DNA from: an uncultured Bacteroidales bacterium
Lineage (GTDB): Bacteria > Bacteroidota > Bacteroidia > Bacteroidales > Bacteroidaceae
Reading direction: 5' to 3'
DNA: 64,000 bases
Assembly: GCA_902774335.1 (NCBI GenBank)
Contig: CACYHW010000012.1
Span: 18,094-82,093, forward strand
Shown here piece by piece: positions 35,224 to 63,229 of this stretch; within the stretch, counting starts at the first letter, position 1, and each line of letters begins with the position of its first letter. The notes under the pieces are model-generated. The model ran no database searches. It worked only from the letters and a program-made list of their open reading frames with translations, and was not told the origin of the DNA. The position numbers and the translations under genes are program-made.

Positions 35224-35251
35224 TGCAATTGGGGTCAGGCCCCAATTGCAC
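35223..35251. repeat. REP-like palindrome family A (perfect 12-bp arms)
   Basis: GTGCAATTGGGG, loop TCAGG, CCCCAATTGCAC. It sits between the convergent TolC-like and dipeptidase genes. Related copies occur at 43991-44015, 45831-45860, 61485-61515 and 63194-63218. Confidence 0.85.
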
Positions 35252-45888: not shown

Positions 45889-47007
45889 TTAAGTATTCTG
45901 CAATCTGAAGAATTCCTTTTGTTGTTCTATCTCCCGACGCAACTCTTCCTGTGTAGGCATATAAGTGAGGTATTTTGCAGCATATAACTGATCATTGCTG
46001 TTAAGGACCGAATAATGCGCAACATCCTCATCAGTCTCAGCACATAATAACATACCTATAGTAGGATTATGGCCTTCCGGACATACCAGTTCGTCATACA
46101 TTTTTACATACATATCCATCTGGCCAACATCTTGATAACTTAGTTTAGTAGTTTTCAAGTCAATAAGCACAAAACTACGCAGATGGTAGTTATAGAAGAC
46201 TAGATCAATGTAATAGTCTTCTTTCTCTGTATGAATGTGTTTCTGACGATCCACAAACGCGAAACCTTTTCCCAACTCCATCAGAAATGGAATCAGATGG
46301 TCAATAATGCTTTGCTCCAGATTACTCTCAGTATAGTCCGTGTTGTTCTTAAATCCCAGGAACTCCGCTATTACCGGGCTCTTAAAGTATTCAAGCTTAT
46401 CCTGCAAAGGTTTTGTCAGTTTCTTCATTTCATTACGAACAACTTCCTTATCTTGAGACTGCAGTAGACGATGATAATATTGTGATGAAACATTACGCTG
46501 TAACGTGCGTGTGCTCCACATTTCTTTTGCAGCTTCATTCTCATACCAAATACGACCATCAAGTGTCAGTTCTTGTAAAATAATGCCATAATGAGTCCAA
46601 GAAAGTCTGATTGGTTTAGTAGGTCTAAGAGACGCATATAAGTCTGATTTTTCAGATAATCCCATCACTGACGGGATTATTTCAGATTGTCCCATCACTG
46701 ACGGGACAATTTCATCTCTTCCATTCTCCTCTTTCAAAAGATTTGGAAAAGACTTATAAAAGGACACAAACCTGTATAGGTTATTCCGGGAAAAGCCTCG
46801 CCCATAAGTTGCAGTCAGTTCCTTGGCCAGATTCTTGATAACCTGCTCACCATATTCCGCCCGCTGATCATTCAAAACCTCATGCTGAATACGCATTCCC
46901 AGCAGCCAGTTACGCTTAATAAGAGTTTCATTAACGGCCTGATAAGCCCATCTTTGAGCTTGCTCGATAATTACACAAGCATCATGAAATAGTTCATTTT
47001 GAGACAT
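45889..47007 (-). CDS. DUF1016 (YhcG-type) PD-(D/E)XK nuclease, copy 1
   Basis: A 372-residue protein. The N-terminal DUF1016 helical domain (about 10-95) contains NWLLGMRIQHEVLNDQRAEYGEQVIKNLAKEL and YGRGFSRNNLYRFVSFYKSFP. After a variable linker (100-118) comes LSWTHYGIILQE, then the C-terminal nuclease fold (about 215-350), where DYYIDLVFYNYHLRSFVLIDLK gives the D...D-x-K core. Family members are often found with defence and mobile elements. Odd: the linker is built from two copies of a ten-residue unit (EI-[VI]-PSVMG-[QL]-S) encoded by tandem palindromes. A TATCTTTG promoter and a 44-nt leader hairpin lie upstream. Paralogue: 60305-61477. Confidence 0.88.
   Translation of the reverse strand: MSQNELFHDACVIIEQAQRWAYQAVNETLIKRNWLLGMRIQHEVLNDQRAEYGEQVIKNLAKELTATYGRGFSRNNLYRFVSFYKSFPNLLKEENGRDEIVPSVMGQSEIIPSVMGLSEKSDLYASLRPTKPIRLSWTHYGIILQELTLDGRIWYENEAAKEMWSTRTLQRNVSSQYYHRLLQSQDKEVVRNEMKKLTKPLQDKLEYFKSPVIAEFLGFKNNTDYTESNLEQSIIDHLIPFLMELGKGFAFVDRQKHIHTEKEDYYIDLVFYNYHLRSFVLIDLKTTKLSYQDVGQMDMYVKMYDELVCPEGHNPTIGMLLCAETDEDVAHYSVLNSNDQLYAAKYLTYMPTQEELRREIEQQKEFFRLQNT
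46656..46710 (-). repeat. Two in-frame 25-bp palindromes in DUF1016 gene 1
   Basis: Copies at 46656-46680 and 46686-46710 have a 30-bp period (10 codons). On the coding strand the arms are ATAATCCCGTCA/TGATGGGATTAT and ATTGTCCCGTCA/TGATGGGACAAT, with a single G centre and one G-T wobble each. Two positions differ between copies, and the opposite arm has changed to match. Confidence 0.92.
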
Positions 47008-56251: not shown

Positions 56252-57031
56252 ATGACTCGCATACTATATAAATATCTAGATATAACTGGAGCAAAAGACA
56301 TGATTGGGAAACAGAATCTCCAATTTACCAATGCCACCCAGCTGAATGATCCCTTTGATTGTCATCCCAAACTATTTGATTCCTCTAATGTGCCGGATTC
56401 CAGGGCACAAGGAGATTTTCATAAAGAATGGCAGAAAAAAATTGCTGAAAATGACGCCCTTAATTTGCGTAATGAAACCTGGCTTTGCAGTCTGTCTAAA
56501 GTCTATGACTCAATACTTATGTGGAGTCATTATTGTTATAATCACAAGGGGATATGCATAGGTCTTGATATAGATAAAGTATTAGATTCCGTCCCTCCCA
56601 TGTTTGGTACGATTTATCTTAAACCTTTCGTTCTTGATGTTAATTACTACGATATCATAGAACGCCCAAGTGCTTATGGACCATCCGCTGAACAACGAAT
56701 GTATCAGTGGACGACAAAAGCCAAGGAATGGGAATACGAACAAGAGGTCAGATTAATTATGCCTAAACCAAGCCAGGCATACGCCGCATTAACTCTTGAG
56801 CAAGCCAAGCACCCAAAGGAAGTATGGGATTGGCGCGAAATACGCCATTATTTGCCACTTAAATGCGAATGTTTTGAGTCCATCTATTTTGGCATCAATA
56901 TTGATCCGACCAAAAAGGAAACTATTATCAAATATGCCCGCAAAAAGCTGAATCCGAAAATAAACCTATATCAAATGCGGATAGATGACAATGCTTTCAG
57001 ATTACAGCCAGAGCCCTGTTCGGAAAAGTGA
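56252..57031 (+). CDS. DUF2971 family protein
   Basis: A 259-residue protein matching DUF2971: YKYLDITGAKDMIGKQNLQFTNATQLNDPFDCHP at the start, WLCSLSKVYDSILMWSHYCYNHKGICIGLDI, and WEYEQEVRLIMP. DUF2971 proteins are frequent in defence islands; no biochemical activity is established to my knowledge. The invariant-looking Asp-Pro-Phe-Asp, Trp-Ser-His-Tyr and Glu-x-Glu-x-Arg residues suggest an enzymatic site (inference). The gene is separate from the restriction operon by 80 bp and converges with a second DUF2971 gene across repeat family B, whose TGACGC arm supplies its stop codon. Confidence 0.78.
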   Translation: MTRILYKYLDITGAKDMIGKQNLQFTNATQLNDPFDCHPKLFDSSNVPDSRAQGDFHKEWQKKIAENDALNLRNETWLCSLSKVYDSILMWSHYCYNHKGICIGLDIDKVLDSVPPMFGTIYLKPFVLDVNYYDIIERPSAYGPSAEQRMYQWTTKAKEWEYEQEVRLIMPKPSQAYAALTLEQAKHPKEVWDWREIRHYLPLKCECFESIYFGINIDPTKKETIIKYARKKLNPKINLYQMRIDDNAFRLQPEPCSEK

Positions 57032-57059
57032 CGCAAAACAAAACGACCCCTTTGCGTCA
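57029..57059. repeat. REP-like palindrome family B supplying both stop codons
   Basis: TGACGC (57029-57034) contains the TGA stop of the plus-strand DUF2971 gene, and GCGTCA (57054-57059) contains the stop of the minus-strand nuclease-DUF2971 gene. The core is AAAACGACCCCTTT. Confidence 0.88.
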
Positions 57060-58400
57060 ACGATATGTATCCATCAAATCAGATGAGATTACATCACCAA
57101 CACTTTTAATTGTACTCTTTGCCATATAGCCATACTGTTCTATCACATCGCCATCACCAATTTTTGGTCCTATTATTACTTTGAAAAGATTCAATGGAAA
57201 GGTGACACCAGCATGATTACTTTTCAGATCGAACAGAAGCATCTTTGATACTATTTTATTATCATCATTCTTTATCCAATCAAACTTTGTTTTGTCATTA
57301 TTTGATGGAACATATAATAGTCTCACTTCGTCCTCTATAGAATAATGATGTGATTTAAAGAAATGCTTCCAAATATGCCAGTTCCTAAAGGTGAATACTT
57401 TATTGTTATTGAAACCAGATACAGCCAAATCATTTATAAAAGCCAATTCAGGATGATTTCCATTCTCATCTTCATAACTAACATGAGCCAAATAAAAACC
57501 TTTATGTTCACCATTCTTTAGGTTTTTATTAATTGAATATGTAAGACAAACACCTTCAGCATTATCACCATACAACCTCCAAAAAGTCAATTCGTTTTCA
57601 TGGCTAATTGGTAGAAGTGACATAATATAGCAGTTATTAGGATCATCAGGAATAGTGTCACAATTAAATGAGACCTTTTTATTGACGTAGTTTAATTCAC
57701 CCTTATCATTCATACAGACGATACTACACATATTCTGTTTCACAGATTTCAACAAAGTAAATAGACTATTCAAAGAAGTATATCTACATATCTTGTCATC
57801 TGTAACTTTACCTAATAAATATAGGAAAAAACAATTTTCAAGTTCATCTGAGCTAAAACGCACTGAAATATCATTTTCTTCAAATGAATCAGGGGTTAAT
57901 GTATCAACCCATTCTTTTAAATCACTTTTGTTATCAATGTGTGTTTCTATATAAGATTTAATTTGATTTTTATATGAACCAATATTTGTGGTGAAATAGT
58001 TTAGTCGAGTTTTTTTTGTAAGTATCTTAACAAATATTGTGTAGTCTGTGATTATTAGAATTGGGTATTTAAAAAGCATTCTATTGCCATCTGTGATAGC
58101 AAACAGGCAATCTTTAAATTGTTCTGGTAATCTTTCGGCATACCTGTTCTCCCAAATTCGATAGTTTGAATTCAATAGGAATTGGGACTCACTTTTTACT
58201 TCAATTATAGAAACAATCTTACCCTCCTTTTTAATAAGTATATCAGGTATATATTGTTGGAATCCATATCGATCGCCCAATAACGGGTTTAACAATTCTA
58301 CTGAAAATGAACGGTAATCTTTTAATAGGCTATTAAGACGTTCATATACTCTTTTTTCTAATTCAGAATACTCACCTTTACTGCTCGGAATAAGTAACAT
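57057..58400 (-). CDS. PD-(D/E)XK nuclease-like domain fused to DUF2971
   Basis: A 447-residue, AT-rich gene. The N-terminal 120 residues look like a PD-(D/E)XK fold: FQQYIPDILIKKEGKIVSIIEVKSE gives P52-D53 and E67-V-K69 in the expected beta-hairpin spacing. A linker region (about 125-200) leads into a DUF2971-like part (about 205-447) with RYTSLNSLFTLLKS, CYIMSLLPISHENELTFWRLYGDNAEGVCLTYSI and IEDEVRLLYVP. Convergence with a stand-alone DUF2971 gene next to a restriction-modification operon suggests a defence role. I know of no described system with this pairing, though I cannot search for one. Low GC relative to the window supports transfer. Confidence 0.72.
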   Translation of the reverse strand: MLLIPSSKGEYSELEKRVYERLNSLLKDYRSFSVELLNPLLGDRYGFQQYIPDILIKKEGKIVSIIEVKSESQFLLNSNYRIWENRYAERLPEQFKDCLFAITDGNRMLFKYPILIITDYTIFVKILTKKTRLNYFTTNIGSYKNQIKSYIETHIDNKSDLKEWVDTLTPDSFEENDISVRFSSDELENCFFLYLLGKVTDDKICRYTSLNSLFTLLKSVKQNMCSIVCMNDKGELNYVNKKVSFNCDTIPDDPNNCYIMSLLPISHENELTFWRLYGDNAEGVCLTYSINKNLKNGEHKGFYLAHVSYEDENGNHPELAFINDLAVSGFNNNKVFTFRNWHIWKHFFKSHHYSIEDEVRLLYVPSNNDKTKFDWIKNDDNKIVSKMLLFDLKSNHAGVTFPLNLFKVIIGPKIGDGDVIEQYGYMAKSTIKSVGDVISSDLMDTYR

Positions 58401-59065: not shown

Positions 59066-59106
59066 TTGTTGTTTGCAGATAATACTAATTATTAAATGTG
59101 AAAAAT

Positions 59107-59727
59107 ATGAATGATCTAGAACCAATTAAGCGCAAAATCTATGAGATTAGAGGGTACAAGGTTATGTTAGATTCTGACCTTGCTGAATTGTACAATGTTG
59201 AAACCAAGAACCTAAAAAGAGCAGTCAGGGCAAACATTGAGCGTTTTCCAGACGATTTTATGTTTGAACTCACAAAAGAGGAGTACGAATCTTTAAGGTG
59301 CAAAAATTTCACCTTAAAGAGTGAAGAGAATGAAAATGCTTTGAGGTGCAAAAATTTCACCTCAAACAATAGAGGTGGAAACCGTTACCTTCCATTTGCA
59401 TTTACCCGTGAAGGAATAGCTATGCTATCAGGGCTTTTAAGGTCAGAAATTGCTGTAAAAGCAAATATAAATATTATGCGTGCTTTCTTTCAAATGCAGG
59501 AAGCATTGCTGATAGTTGGTAATACTCAGCTGCAAATAGAACAGATCAGATCTGAGATAATGCAACTAAGGGTTGATTTGAACGACATCTTAGCTGACCA
59601 AAATGACATCAACGAAACAACACGTGCTCAACTTGACGCCATAAGTTCTGCATTAGCTGAATTACAAAGCGATAGGGCCAGGCACACTGGGTGCAACCCT
59701 ATTGGATTCAATGTCCCCAAACAGTGA
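59107..59727 (+). CDS. ORF6N domain protein (KilA-N-like DNA-binding)
   Basis: A 206-residue protein starting at the ATG at 59107 (a GTG at 59098 is possible). Residues about 5-115 are the ORF6N domain: IKRKIYEIRGYKVMLDSDLAELYNVETKNLKRAVRANIERFPDDFMFELTKEEYESL, then GGNRYLPFAFTREGIAMLSGLL. The C-terminus is a coiled-coil-like helix (about 140-195). ORF6N domains occur in phage and accessory bacterial proteins and are thought to bind DNA. Between the two conserved blocks lies a duplicated 16-residue unit starting LRCKNFT (about 62-87), encoded by two covarying hairpins. Only one such unit is expected in relatives (from memory). Confidence 0.85.
   Translation: MNDLEPIKRKIYEIRGYKVMLDSDLAELYNVETKNLKRAVRANIERFPDDFMFELTKEEYESLRCKNFTLKSEENENALRCKNFTSNNRGGNRYLPFAFTREGIAMLSGLLRSEIAVKANINIMRAFFQMQEALLIVGNTQLQIEQIRSEIMQLRVDLNDILADQNDINETTRAQLDAISSALAELQSDRARHTGCNPIGFNVPKQ
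59292..59366 (+). repeat. Two in-frame covarying hairpins in ORF6N gene
   Basis: Hairpin 1 (59292-59318): TTTAAGGTG, loop CAAAAATTT, CACCTTAAA. Hairpin 2 (59340-59366): TTTGAGGTG, the same loop, CACCTCAAA. The period is 48 bp (16 codons). The single arm difference (A to G) is compensated in the other arm (T to C). Confidence 0.92.
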
Positions 59728-60304: not shown

Positions 60305-61477
60305 ATGACAATGAAAGACATTCTTAGTCCTAAGTACAATGATGCTGTCCATCAGATCAAGACAGCTATTATGCAGAGTCAGTCAAAGGCTCTCGCCAGT
60401 GTTAACCAGGAGCAGCTTGCCCTTTACTATGGTATCGGCCGGTATATATCCTATAATACCAGAAAGGGGTATTGGGGTAAAGAAGCTGTTGATGTCATCA
60501 GCAAGCAGCTATCAATTGAAATGCCTGGGCTTAAAGGTTTCTCTCCTCGTAATTTGAGAAATATGAGGATATTCTATGAGAAATGGAAATGCTTGGACAC
60601 CAATTCATCGGTTGCGACTGATGAAATGCAAAAAAGTGTAAATTCGTCAGTCGCGACTGACGAATTGCAAAAAAGTGTAAATTTGGCAGTCGCGACTGCC
60701 AAATTAGGCTCAAAGATAGATGCAGCAAACAATAATCTTCTAGACATACCTATCGCCGCCTTTTTTAGCATCGGTTTTACTCATCACATAGCTATTCTTT
60801 CTGGATCCAGCACAATGGAGGAAAGATCTTTTTATATACATCTATGTCATGAAGAAAAATTATCTGTCAGCGAACTTCAAAAGCGTATCGCAGAGGATGC
60901 ATTCCACAATCAAGGAAAGATGCCCAACAATTTCAACGCAGCTATTCCCGATAACAAACAAGCGTTCAAAGCGATACAATTGTTTAAGGATGAATATCTG
61001 CTCGACTTTATCAACGTTGAACAATTAGGGCAACGTGAGGAGGATATTGACGAACGGGTGATAGAAAATGAGATCGTTCACAATATCAGGAACTTCATAA
61101 TGACTTTTGGGAAGGGGTTCGCGTATATCGGCAACCAAGTTCATTATGATAAACTTGGGCATGACAATTGGATTGATTTGCTGTTCTTTAATAGAATTCT
61201 GCGATCACTCGTTGTGGTTGAACTTAAAAAAGGATCTTTCAAACCAGGTTATTTGGGACAGCTTTCCCACTATCTGCACATTCTTGATGATGATGAAAGG
61301 ATTGAAGGTGAGAACCCGCCTTTAGGGATTATCTTGTGTAAGGATGCCGATAAGACTTTTGTGGAATATGTCCTTCAAGATTACCAACGACCGATGGGGG
61401 TTGCCACATATAGAGCCAGTCAGGAAAGGTTGAAACAACTGCTTCCGGATGAGGAAGAGATGAAGAAATTGTTGTGA
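60305..61477 (+). CDS. DUF1016 (YhcG-type) PD-(D/E)XK nuclease, copy 2
   Basis: A 390-residue protein (start ATG 60305, or 60311). The N-terminal DUF1016 domain has LASVNQEQLALYYGIGRYISYNTRKGYWGKEAVDVISKQL and GFSPRNLRNMRIFYEKW (about 20-95). A repeated linker (100-134) follows, then the FSIGFTHHIAILSGSSTMEERSFYI region and the nuclease core (about 250-375): VHYDKLGHDNWIDLLFFNRILRSLVVVELKKGSFKPGYLGQLSHYL, with D...E-x-K. The linker is three 13-residue units (first two NSSVATDE-x-QKSV) encoded by palindromes. The repeat array begins at the same codon (about 100) as the different palindrome pair in copy 1. It is probably a DNA-acting accessory or defence protein; target unknown. Confidence 0.88.
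   Translation: MTMKDILSPKYNDAVHQIKTAIMQSQSKALASVNQEQLALYYGIGRYISYNTRKGYWGKEAVDVISKQLSIEMPGLKGFSPRNLRNMRIFYEKWKCLDTNSSVATDEMQKSVNSSVATDELQKSVNLAVATAKLGSKIDAANNNLLDIPIAAFFSIGFTHHIAILSGSSTMEERSFYIHLCHEEKLSVSELQKRIAEDAFHNQGKMPNNFNAAIPDNKQAFKAIQLFKDEYLLDFINVEQLGQREEDIDERVIENEIVHNIRNFIMTFGKGFAYIGNQVHYDKLGHDNWIDLLFFNRILRSLVVVELKKGSFKPGYLGQLSHYLHILDDDERIEGENPPLGIILCKDADKTFVEYVLQDYQRPMGVATYRASQERLKQLLPDEEEMKKLL
60602..60705 (+). repeat. Three in-frame 26-bp palindromes in DUF1016 gene 2
   Basis: Palindromes at 60602-60627, 60641-60666 and 60680-60705, period 39 bp (13 codons), separated by GCAAAAAAGTGTA. Cores are GTTGCGAC, GTCGCGAC and GTCGCGAC. Copies 2 and 3 are perfect palindromes with different arms (AATTCGTCA against AATTTGGCA); copy 1 deviates mainly by G-T pairs. 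Confidence 0.93.
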
Positions 61478-61484
61478 TTGGAAT

Positions 61485-61515
61485 AGTACAAAAGGGGACA
61501 GACCCCTTTTGTACT
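61485..61515. repeat. REP-like palindrome family A (perfect 13-bp arms)
   Basis: AGTACAAAAGGGG, loop ACAGA, CCCCTTTTGTACT, between the convergent DUF1016 gene 2 and the GH35-type gene. A partial extra TTTTGTAC follows at about 61518-61525. Confidence 0.88.
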
Positions 61516-61527
61516 ACTTTTGTACGG

Positions 61528-63141: not shown

Positions 63142-63193
63142 ATGCCAACGAAATATATTATCAGCAAACATACAAAAAAGACACAAAAAGGGA

Positions 63194-63218
63194 ACAATTG
63201 GGGCCTGACCCCAATTGT
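63194..63218. repeat. REP-like palindrome family A (perfect 10-bp arms)
   Basis: ACAATTGGGG, loop CCTGA, CCCCAATTGT. It lies in the divergent region between the GH35-type and Nudix genes, just upstream of the Nudix promoter. Confidence 0.85.
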
Positions 63219-63229
63219 ACTATTTTTGC

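Follow-up and report, generated by a model that had tools for sequence, protein, structure and literature searches.

Among described systems, the closest to the one reported here are ParB and Noc, for which sections of PMC7383237 describe a dimer that reads a palindrome via a recognition helix and further helices, with specificity set by few residues (R173/Q173 and G201/R201). Palindromic DNA inside coding genes is the subject of sections of PMC4316617, in which Rickettsia palindromic elements are described as lying within genes without disrupting them. Here we analyse a DUF1016/YhcG gene with three palindromes in its own coding sequence, located in a 64,000-nucleotide stretch of DNA from an uncultured Bacteroidales bacterium (contig CACYHW010000012.1, positions 18,094 to 82,093; hereafter the window). 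A site within a regulated gene can block transcription, as in the intragenic operators of self-regulating repressors, of which single cases are known to us. Based on sequence comparisons across the gene family, we put the probability at roughly 0.78 that the palindromes of the window gene are dyad-symmetric sites that the gene's own protein reads with its DUF1016_N domain.

The gene begins at ATG 60305 or ATG 60311, TTG 60296 also being possible, and residues of its protein are counted from 60308. Its features are as follows.

60305 to 61477, plus strand: DUF1016_N/YhcG_C PDDEXK nuclease gene (open reading frame list; Pfam PF17761 and PF06250; PADLOC PDC-S02).
60485 to 60598, plus strand: predicted helix-turn-helix-like region 1 (AlphaFold2, covariation, hold-out).
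60602 to 60627, unstranded: palindromic site 1, AATTCATCGGTTGCGACTGATGAAAT, 8/11 pairs (direct inspection and pair scoring).
60641 to 60666, unstranded: palindromic site 2, AATTCGTCAGTCGCGACTGACGAATT, 11/11 pairs (direct inspection and pair scoring).
60680 to 60705, unstranded: palindromic site 3, AATTTGGCAGTCGCGACTGCCAAATT, 11/11 pairs (direct inspection and pair scoring).
60776 to 60892, plus strand: second predicted DNA-reading region, C-terminal to the linker (AlphaFold2, covariation, hold-out).
60977 to 61420, plus strand: YhcG_C PDDEXK nuclease domain (Pfam; alignment of 39 homologues; Foldseek).

Membership of the DUF1016/YhcG family was indicated by both Pfam domains scoring above cut-off, DUF1016_N with 94.6 bits (cut-off 32.8) over residues 16-200 and YhcG_C with 150.2 bits (cut-off 32.5), and by conservation of the PDDEXK catalytic residues, D290, E305, K307 and Q318 being invariant across 39 aligned homologues. 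Foldseek matched the model of the C-terminal domain to EndoMS-type folds (EndoMS, Can2, Card1 and NucC). A sequence search of the PDB with the whole protein gave no match, and a search with a profile of the N-terminal domain gave three matches only (E-values 0.43-1.2). In the two AlphaFold2 models, with mean predicted local distance difference test (pLDDT) scores of 74.8 and 77.1, region 1 is predicted to consist of helix 60-71 and the recognition helix 80-97 (GFSPRNLRNMRIFY), the second region of helices 157-166, 170-183 and 187-195, and residues 99-144 form a predicted disordered linker. An earlier, sequence-only reading of this DNA had described copies 2 and 3 as perfect 26-bp palindromes with differing arms, 39 bp apart, and this was borne out. 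Copy 1 had been called palindromic apart from G-T pairs; it does contain two G.T pairs, but an A.A mismatch as well. The repeats had also been placed between two DUF1016 domains, whereas they lie inside the single DUF1016_N match, in the predicted disordered linker.

Linker palindromes proved to be a feature of the family. The sample comprised 161 DUF1016 genes or long pieces from genomes of the window's bacterial family, GTDB species genomes, viral contigs, Escherichia coli K-12, plasmids and further genomes of the phylum. A linker palindrome of at least 9/11 pairs was present in 149 of them, the number of sites per gene being 0, 1, 2, 3 and 4 in 12, 59, 68, 20 and 2 genes, respectively. After omission of three linkers shorter than 15 codons, the best palindrome reached at least 10/11 in 131 of 158 linkers, compared with 0.4% after codon shuffling, 2.4% after synonymous recoding and 1 of 799 equal-length segments of the C-terminal (nuclease) part. 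Perfect palindromes (11/11) were found in 69 of the 158 linkers, against 0% of shuffles, 0.2% of recodings and 0/799 C-terminal segments. Chance is excluded, because linker palindromes far outnumber those in shuffles, recodings and C-terminal segments, and pure coincidence of codon choice was ruled out by the same comparisons. The sequence-only reading had proposed that something maintains the symmetry, had suggested scoring it against shuffled synonymous codons, and had regarded as counter-evidence any orthologues in which non-palindromic codons specify the same peptides. The symmetry exceeds what codon choice would lead one to expect, and orthologues showed the opposite pattern, the peptides varying while the palindrome persists. 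In a stricter listing, which took only open frames of at least 180 amino acids, one linker palindrome each was found in a Rhodococcus and a Cupriavidus plasmid gene, whereas no palindrome was scored in several others, including the plasmid genes at L159, L161, L162, L164 and L166. At locus L062 (1320-1710), a DUF1016 pseudogene retains N- and C-terminal pieces, separated by a gap that terminates at a palindrome.

The linker palindromes have centres in several codon phases and, in the 117 genes with open frames of at least 300 amino acids, are seen to be read in different frames. Thus, AATTCGTCAGTTGCAACTGACGAATT encodes TIRQLQLTN in L082 and L106, AATTCGTCAGTCGCAACTGACGAATT encodes NSSVATDEL in L106, and odd-centred copies encode IRQPLAGEL in L030; these differing reading frames rule out a constraint at the level of the peptide. 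A hairpin in the mRNA, serving translation pausing, RNA stability or recognition by an RNA-binding protein, would have strong stems, and the odd-centred copies would leave a short loop. However, mismatches in 233 distinct linker palindromes (coding strand) were less often G.T (43) than A.C (80), and anywhere in the genes 92 G.U-compatible mismatches were counted compared with 162 A.C mismatches, the reverse of what is expected of an mRNA stem. The lack of a G.U bias therefore indicates that the symmetry is kept in the DNA and not in the mRNA, and an RNA stem would also leave unexplained why the letters of the arms are tied to helix residues of the protein (see below). A structured RNA element, one of the options raised earlier, was rejected on these grounds and is extremely improbable.

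Close orthologues altered both arms jointly: the copy AATTCGTCAGTCGCGACTGACGAATT in L004 contrasts with AATTCGCCAGTCGCGACTGGCGAATT in L063, in proteins that are 93% identical, and L005 (86% identical) carries AATTCGGCAGACGCGTCTGCCGAATT, the arms again having changed together. Joint change of this kind could arise if template switching during replication perfected imperfect palindromes whose symmetry had no function, and the variable copy number (0 to 4 sites per gene) would fit as well. Such self-templating, which the sequence-only reading had preferred as a means of diversifying the linker, predicts no match between the arms and recognition-helix residues tens of codons away. Nor does it predict a fixed place of the palindromes in four gene families or their rarity in other coding sequence, and we found no support for it; its probability is in our view very small.

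The residues that predict the arms were sought in an unguided column scan outside the linker, which asked whether genes with a residue in common also have half-site letters in common to a greater extent than the similarity of their proteins as a whole would predict (125 non-redundant genes from the 149; 297 columns in printed bins). The eight best columns were residues 81, 84 and 85, 158, 161 and 162, and 187 and 188 (z 8.4 to 4.1), followed by a ninth with z 3.5. In the AlphaFold2 models these eight lie where helices 80-97, 157-166 and 187-195 make their first turns, and each of these helices comes after another one. In the window protein, the residues of region 1 that covary with the palindrome arms are R81 (60548), R84 (60557) and N85 (60560), and those of the second region are T158, I161, A162, V187 and S188, which covary mainly with the inner bases of the half-site. 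Set out for the 149 genes, residues and bases resemble a code. In residue tables for the 115 genes left after removal of near-identical ones, half-site base 6 is G in 49 of the 50 genes with R81, base 4 is A in 46 of the 47 with N85 and C in 10 of the 12 with K85, and base 2 is C in 19 of the 20 with K187. The association was also seen between sister genes, compared as 74 disjoint nearest-neighbour pairs in 2493 tests with a Bonferroni limit of 2e-5. Joint changes were found for residue 81 and base 6 (p=2e-9), for residue 85 and base 4 (p=5e-8) and for residues 186, 158 and 187 with base 2 (p=1e-6 to 4e-6).

Rules fixed on this first set were applied to a hold-out set of 41 genes (40 further stretches and the second DUF1016 gene of the window), 36 of which had a palindrome. 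Here the search for sites covered residues 75 to 190 instead of aligned linkers, and scoring was restricted to the 35 genes less than 90% identical to the training genes (1 of the 36 left out; median best identity 48%). Five of seven residue-to-base rules held. Base 4 was predicted correctly in 33 of 35 genes (majority guess 27), base 6 in 26 (majority guess 21), and base 2 in 19 (majority guess 9); residue 188 gave the right base 1 in 24 (majority guess 15). None of 2000 shuffles did as well on any of these four, and 1 of 2000 did as well as the rule from residue 84 to base 8, which was right in 18 genes (majority guess 8). Of the 19 genes with R81 in the printed rows, we counted 18 with G at base 6, and none of four control pairings with residues elsewhere exceeded the majority guess in these 35 genes. 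Because helix residues predict the arms and five of the seven rules hold in unseen genes, the protein most likely reads the palindrome of its own gene. Binding by the encoded DNA-acting protein, an option that the sequence-only reading had listed among several, is thus strongly supported as far as sequence evidence goes.

In the proposed mechanism, the two predicted DNA-reading helix regions that flank the linker would divide the half-site between them, the initial residues of the first region reading the outer bases (4, 6 and 8) and those of the second the inner ones (1 and 2); both half-sites would be read by a dimer. With the site placed in a predicted disordered linker, the peptide could drift and shift frame while the site and the reading residues coevolve.

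Sites of a gene's own type were rare elsewhere, with two extra ones in 574,153 flanking bases of the 149 genes (at most 3 kb per side), one at L114, 126 nucleotides past the end of the frame, and the other after E. coli yhcG. Within the window's genome (87% complete), a strict pattern was found only in this DUF1016 gene; it matched 50 of 201 family genomes (8 of 201 for a reversed control), the matches including some that are not palindromes of this type and some in other genes. A scan of 1.05 Mb of fetched DNA gave nine strong coding palindromes beyond the DUF1016 set: ORF6N genes accounted for five, DUF1016 fragments for two, and a KilA-N gene (L248) and an N-masked frame for one each. It also gave 40 intergenic palindromes, of which only those starting like linker sites were printed. 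A small mobile palindromic element inserted in frame, comparable to those of Rickettsia and likewise raised earlier, would account for the position in frame and the variable copy number, and apparent relics outside intact DUF1016 genes (L046 and L057) speak for it. It would leave a dispersed family to be expected, yet the strict pattern in the window's genome is confined to this gene and eight of the nine strong coding palindromes outside the set are in ORF6N, DUF1016 or KilA-N genes. Moreover, the sequence varies by gene and tracks the protein, at a position fixed per family. A dispersed palindromic element was rejected on account of this confinement to one gene and a few families, and an origin by insertion is accordingly very improbable.

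The apparent relic in L046 (1440-1620) resembles a short DUF1016 linker with a near-perfect palindrome beside a GGGGACAGACCCC hairpin, and sits downstream of an ORF6N gene that itself has two perfect palindromes. The other, in L057 (1464-1599), is a 27-bp DUF1016-type palindrome in a short gap between genes resembling hsdM and hsdS by eye; it is perhaps a relic, and DUF1016 genes can lodge at such spots (compare L162).

The window contains three genes with this arrangement, namely the DUF1016 gene at 60305-61477, an ORF6N gene at 59098-59727 and another DUF1016 gene at 45911-47001. The features of the latter two are as follows.

59098 to 59727, plus strand: ORF6N gene directly upstream of the DUF1016 gene (Pfam; PADLOC PDC-S05; covariation in the family).
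59292 to 59318, unstranded: ORF6N in-frame palindrome 1, TTTAAGGTGCAAAAATTTCACCTTAAA, 10/11 (pair scoring).
59340 to 59366, unstranded: ORF6N in-frame palindrome 2, TTTGAGGTGCAAAAATTTCACCTCAAA, 10/11, arms covarying with those of palindrome 1 (pair scoring).
45911 to 47001, minus strand: second DUF1016 gene, distantly related (28% identity), with a palindrome pair of its own (homology, pair scoring).
46655 to 46681, unstranded: in-frame palindrome of the second DUF1016 gene, GATAATCCCATCACTGACGGGATTATT, 10/11 (pair scoring).
46685 to 46711, unstranded: in-frame palindrome of the second DUF1016 gene, GATTGTCCCATCACTGACGGGACAATT, 10/11, with a common core and covarying arms (pair scoring).

A palindrome of at least 9/11 lay at one fixed place in 59 of 62 ORF6N genes, and 10/11 was reached anywhere in the gene in 51 of the 62, compared with 1.6% of recodings. 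A scan of 133 columns in 50 genes (from 59, after removal of near-identical ones) gave K37, N38, R41, R44 and A45 (z 6.2 to 3.9), together with residue 57, as the six columns that best predict the arms; the former five are the recognition-helix-like residues of the window protein (59206-59232) that covary with the arms in this family. Among the commonest of the listed sites, E41 was accompanied by CGC, Q41 by TCAC and K41 by TTCC. These sequence patterns suggest that ORF6N is an independent second case of the same arrangement, with a code of its own. A viral scan with a single ORF6N protein gave one locus. Palindromes of 10/11 were also found in 22 of 30 RhuM genes (2.0% of recodings; 10/30 by a gap-penalised score) and at 17 of 29 KilA-N loci (1.7% of recodings; 15/29 by the gap-penalised score). 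These two sets came from genomes of the window's bacterial family only and were scored for the presence of palindromes; the gene was taken as the longest open frame near the middle of the locus, a few loci being other genes.

Palindromes are thus found at a fixed spot per family in DUF1016, ORF6N, RhuM and KilA-N genes. These families probably represent a class of self-reading genes, in which the coding sequence would hold, near the DNA-reading motif and in any frame, the palindrome that its protein reads, site and reader forming one portable unit. Its members would be DUF1016 genes of Bacteroidota, Pseudomonadota, Actinomycetota, plasmids and viral contigs; ORF6N genes, sampled here from viral contigs as well as the window's bacterial family; and RhuM and KilA-N genes, which were sampled from that bacterial family only.

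The yhcG gene of E. coli K-12 has three palindromes in its linker. Two alleles, A (L157 and L204) and B (L205, which is frameshifted, and L206), have flanks that are about 96% identical and diverge chiefly at nucleotides 250-400 (identity 31, 32 and 18 per 50 nucleotides), a block that contains both the recognition helix and the palindromes. Allele A has the helix RGFSAKNLRQMRLFY and sites such as CGCCAGACAGTGTCTGGCG, and allele B the helix RGFSTRNLWQFKNFY and GTGCAGACACTGTCTGCAC. This joint change of reader and sites is compatible with self-reading and is not proof of it, the two being neighbours for which linkage alone could suffice. Palindrome 3 of E. coli yhcG gave 7053 matches in 3526 genomes (median 2, maximum 4 per genome, both strands counted), which we read as the two strands of one place per genome; 1009 of 5426 genomes gave no megablast match to K-12 yhcG. 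Some alleles (L200, L201 and L203) are truncated beside IS1 or transposase genes, two of them breaking at nucleotides 385 and 406, within the third palindrome. Domain swapping at the palindromes was rejected for E. coli, as the three truncated loci fetched adjoin IS1 or transposase genes.

Several observations weigh against the reading of these palindromes by their own proteins. No linker palindrome of at least 9/11 was found in 12 of the 161 genes, and no palindrome in 5 of the 41 hold-out genes. Two hold-out rules failed, from residue 82 to base 3 (8/35; majority guess 9) and from residue 187 to base 1 (13/35; majority guess 15). In the sister-pair test, open reading frame indices 334 and 50 (residues 329 and 45) with base 5 also passed the Bonferroni limit; they do so without a structural reason, and relatedness was therefore not fully removed, the permutation z-scores of the DUF1016 and ORF6N scans leaving some of it too. 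In ORF6N, the top columns include, besides those of the recognition helix, residue 57 (z 4.7) next to the linker; below them come residues 100 and 208 (z 3.3 and 3.2). The second site of E. coli allele B has outer arms like those of the first site of allele A, so that the alleles do not separate cleanly. The extra own-type site after E. coli yhcG is centred about 30 nucleotides beyond the gene, and a site therefore need not be coding. Finally, the Foldseek match of DUF1016_N to Noc (6y93_A) was not significant (E-value 6.3, probability 0.41).

The simplest use of self-binding would be to limit transcription through the gene. Bound in cis, the protein would limit transcription of its own gene and of downstream genes in the operon, whatever promoter the mobile gene lands behind. 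We put this purpose forward tentatively, as at best an even bet, because the families share DNA reading and not a nuclease, because the site is independent of the promoter, and because restriction, methylase or defence genes adjoin the DUF1016 gene at 4 of 11 annotated plasmid loci (L161, L162, L164 and L169). The main alternative is that the protein binds in the same way and its nuclease cuts or nicks its own gene, which might serve to eliminate another incoming copy of the same element, to keep copy number in check or to promote recombination at that place. The PDDEXK residues invariant in 39 homologues, the rarity of own-type sites outside the gene, the occurrence of DUF1016 genes on plasmids and viral contigs, the deletion in L062 that ends at a palindrome and the E. 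coli yhcG breakpoints inside the third palindrome all argue for self-directed cutting. However, a cell bearing such a gene would cut itself continually unless cutting were conditional, and ORF6N, KilA-N and RhuM genes carry palindromes too, while the single ORF6N protein scanned with Pfam showed no nuclease domain. Moreover, no nuclease is needed for palindromes to attract deletions, and the E. coli cases adjoin IS1 or transposase genes. We consider self-directed cutting unlikely.

One further feature lies directly 3' of the DUF1016 stop codon.

61484 to 61516, plus strand: terminator-like hairpin with a T-rich tail, GGGGACAGACCCC type (scored as a terminator).

It includes one of three hairpins with GGGG/CCCC stems in the window, at 35224-35250 (GGGGTCAGGCCCC), 61487-61513 (GGGGACAGACCCC; the terminator-like copy) and 63193-63219 (GGGGCCTGACCCC), which resemble a dispersed repeat. 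DUF2971 occurs in two adjoining, oppositely oriented genes of the window (56252-57031 and 57057-58400).

If self-reading is correct, sequence-specific binding to their own gene would be the first concrete molecular activity for several families that have no assigned function, namely DUF1016/YhcG, which is present in E. coli K-12, ORF6N, RhuM and KilA-N. A mobile gene could control or mark itself behind any promoter, which could explain the persistence of such genes inside restriction-modification operons. Each gene would report both a recognition helix and its target, making many natural protein-DNA specificity pairs readable from genomes; the linked pairs would be a natural record of specificity changes, from which the recognition code could be read directly.

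Regarding known systems, the window proteins match the PADLOC candidate defence models PDC-S02 (DUF1016) and PDC-S05 (ORF6N), PDC standing for 'phage defence candidate'. No report of a self-site in DUF1016/YhcG, ORF6N or KilA-N genes was found in the titles and abstract openings of the papers listed, a provisional result since subscription papers were mostly uncovered. As in ParB-parS and Noc-NBS, a palindrome would here be read via a recognition helix and more helices, with predicted specificity in few residues, and the DNA-binding domain of Noc on its site (6y93_A) had the highest target-normalised template modelling score (TM-score) to the DUF1016_N model, 0.66, among the 50 PDB chains listed, although its E-value was not significant. 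In contrast to ParB and Noc, DUF1016 has a PDDEXK nuclease domain, and the cytidine triphosphate-binding N-terminal domain of ParB was not found in the window protein, for which a Pfam scan gave DUF1016_N and YhcG_C only. Whereas parS can occur in several copies near the origin, own-type sites are rare outside the gene; one Bacillus subtilis parS lies inside spo0J, which was not confirmed in the texts looked at. The palindromes share with Rickettsia palindromic elements their position inside intact coding genes, but are 26-27 bp in size, fixed in place per family and track the protein. As in intragenic operators, the candidate site is within the gene itself, regulation being here an inference; unlike in those operators, it lies in the linker of its own presumed reader, in most genes examined, and evolves with that reader.
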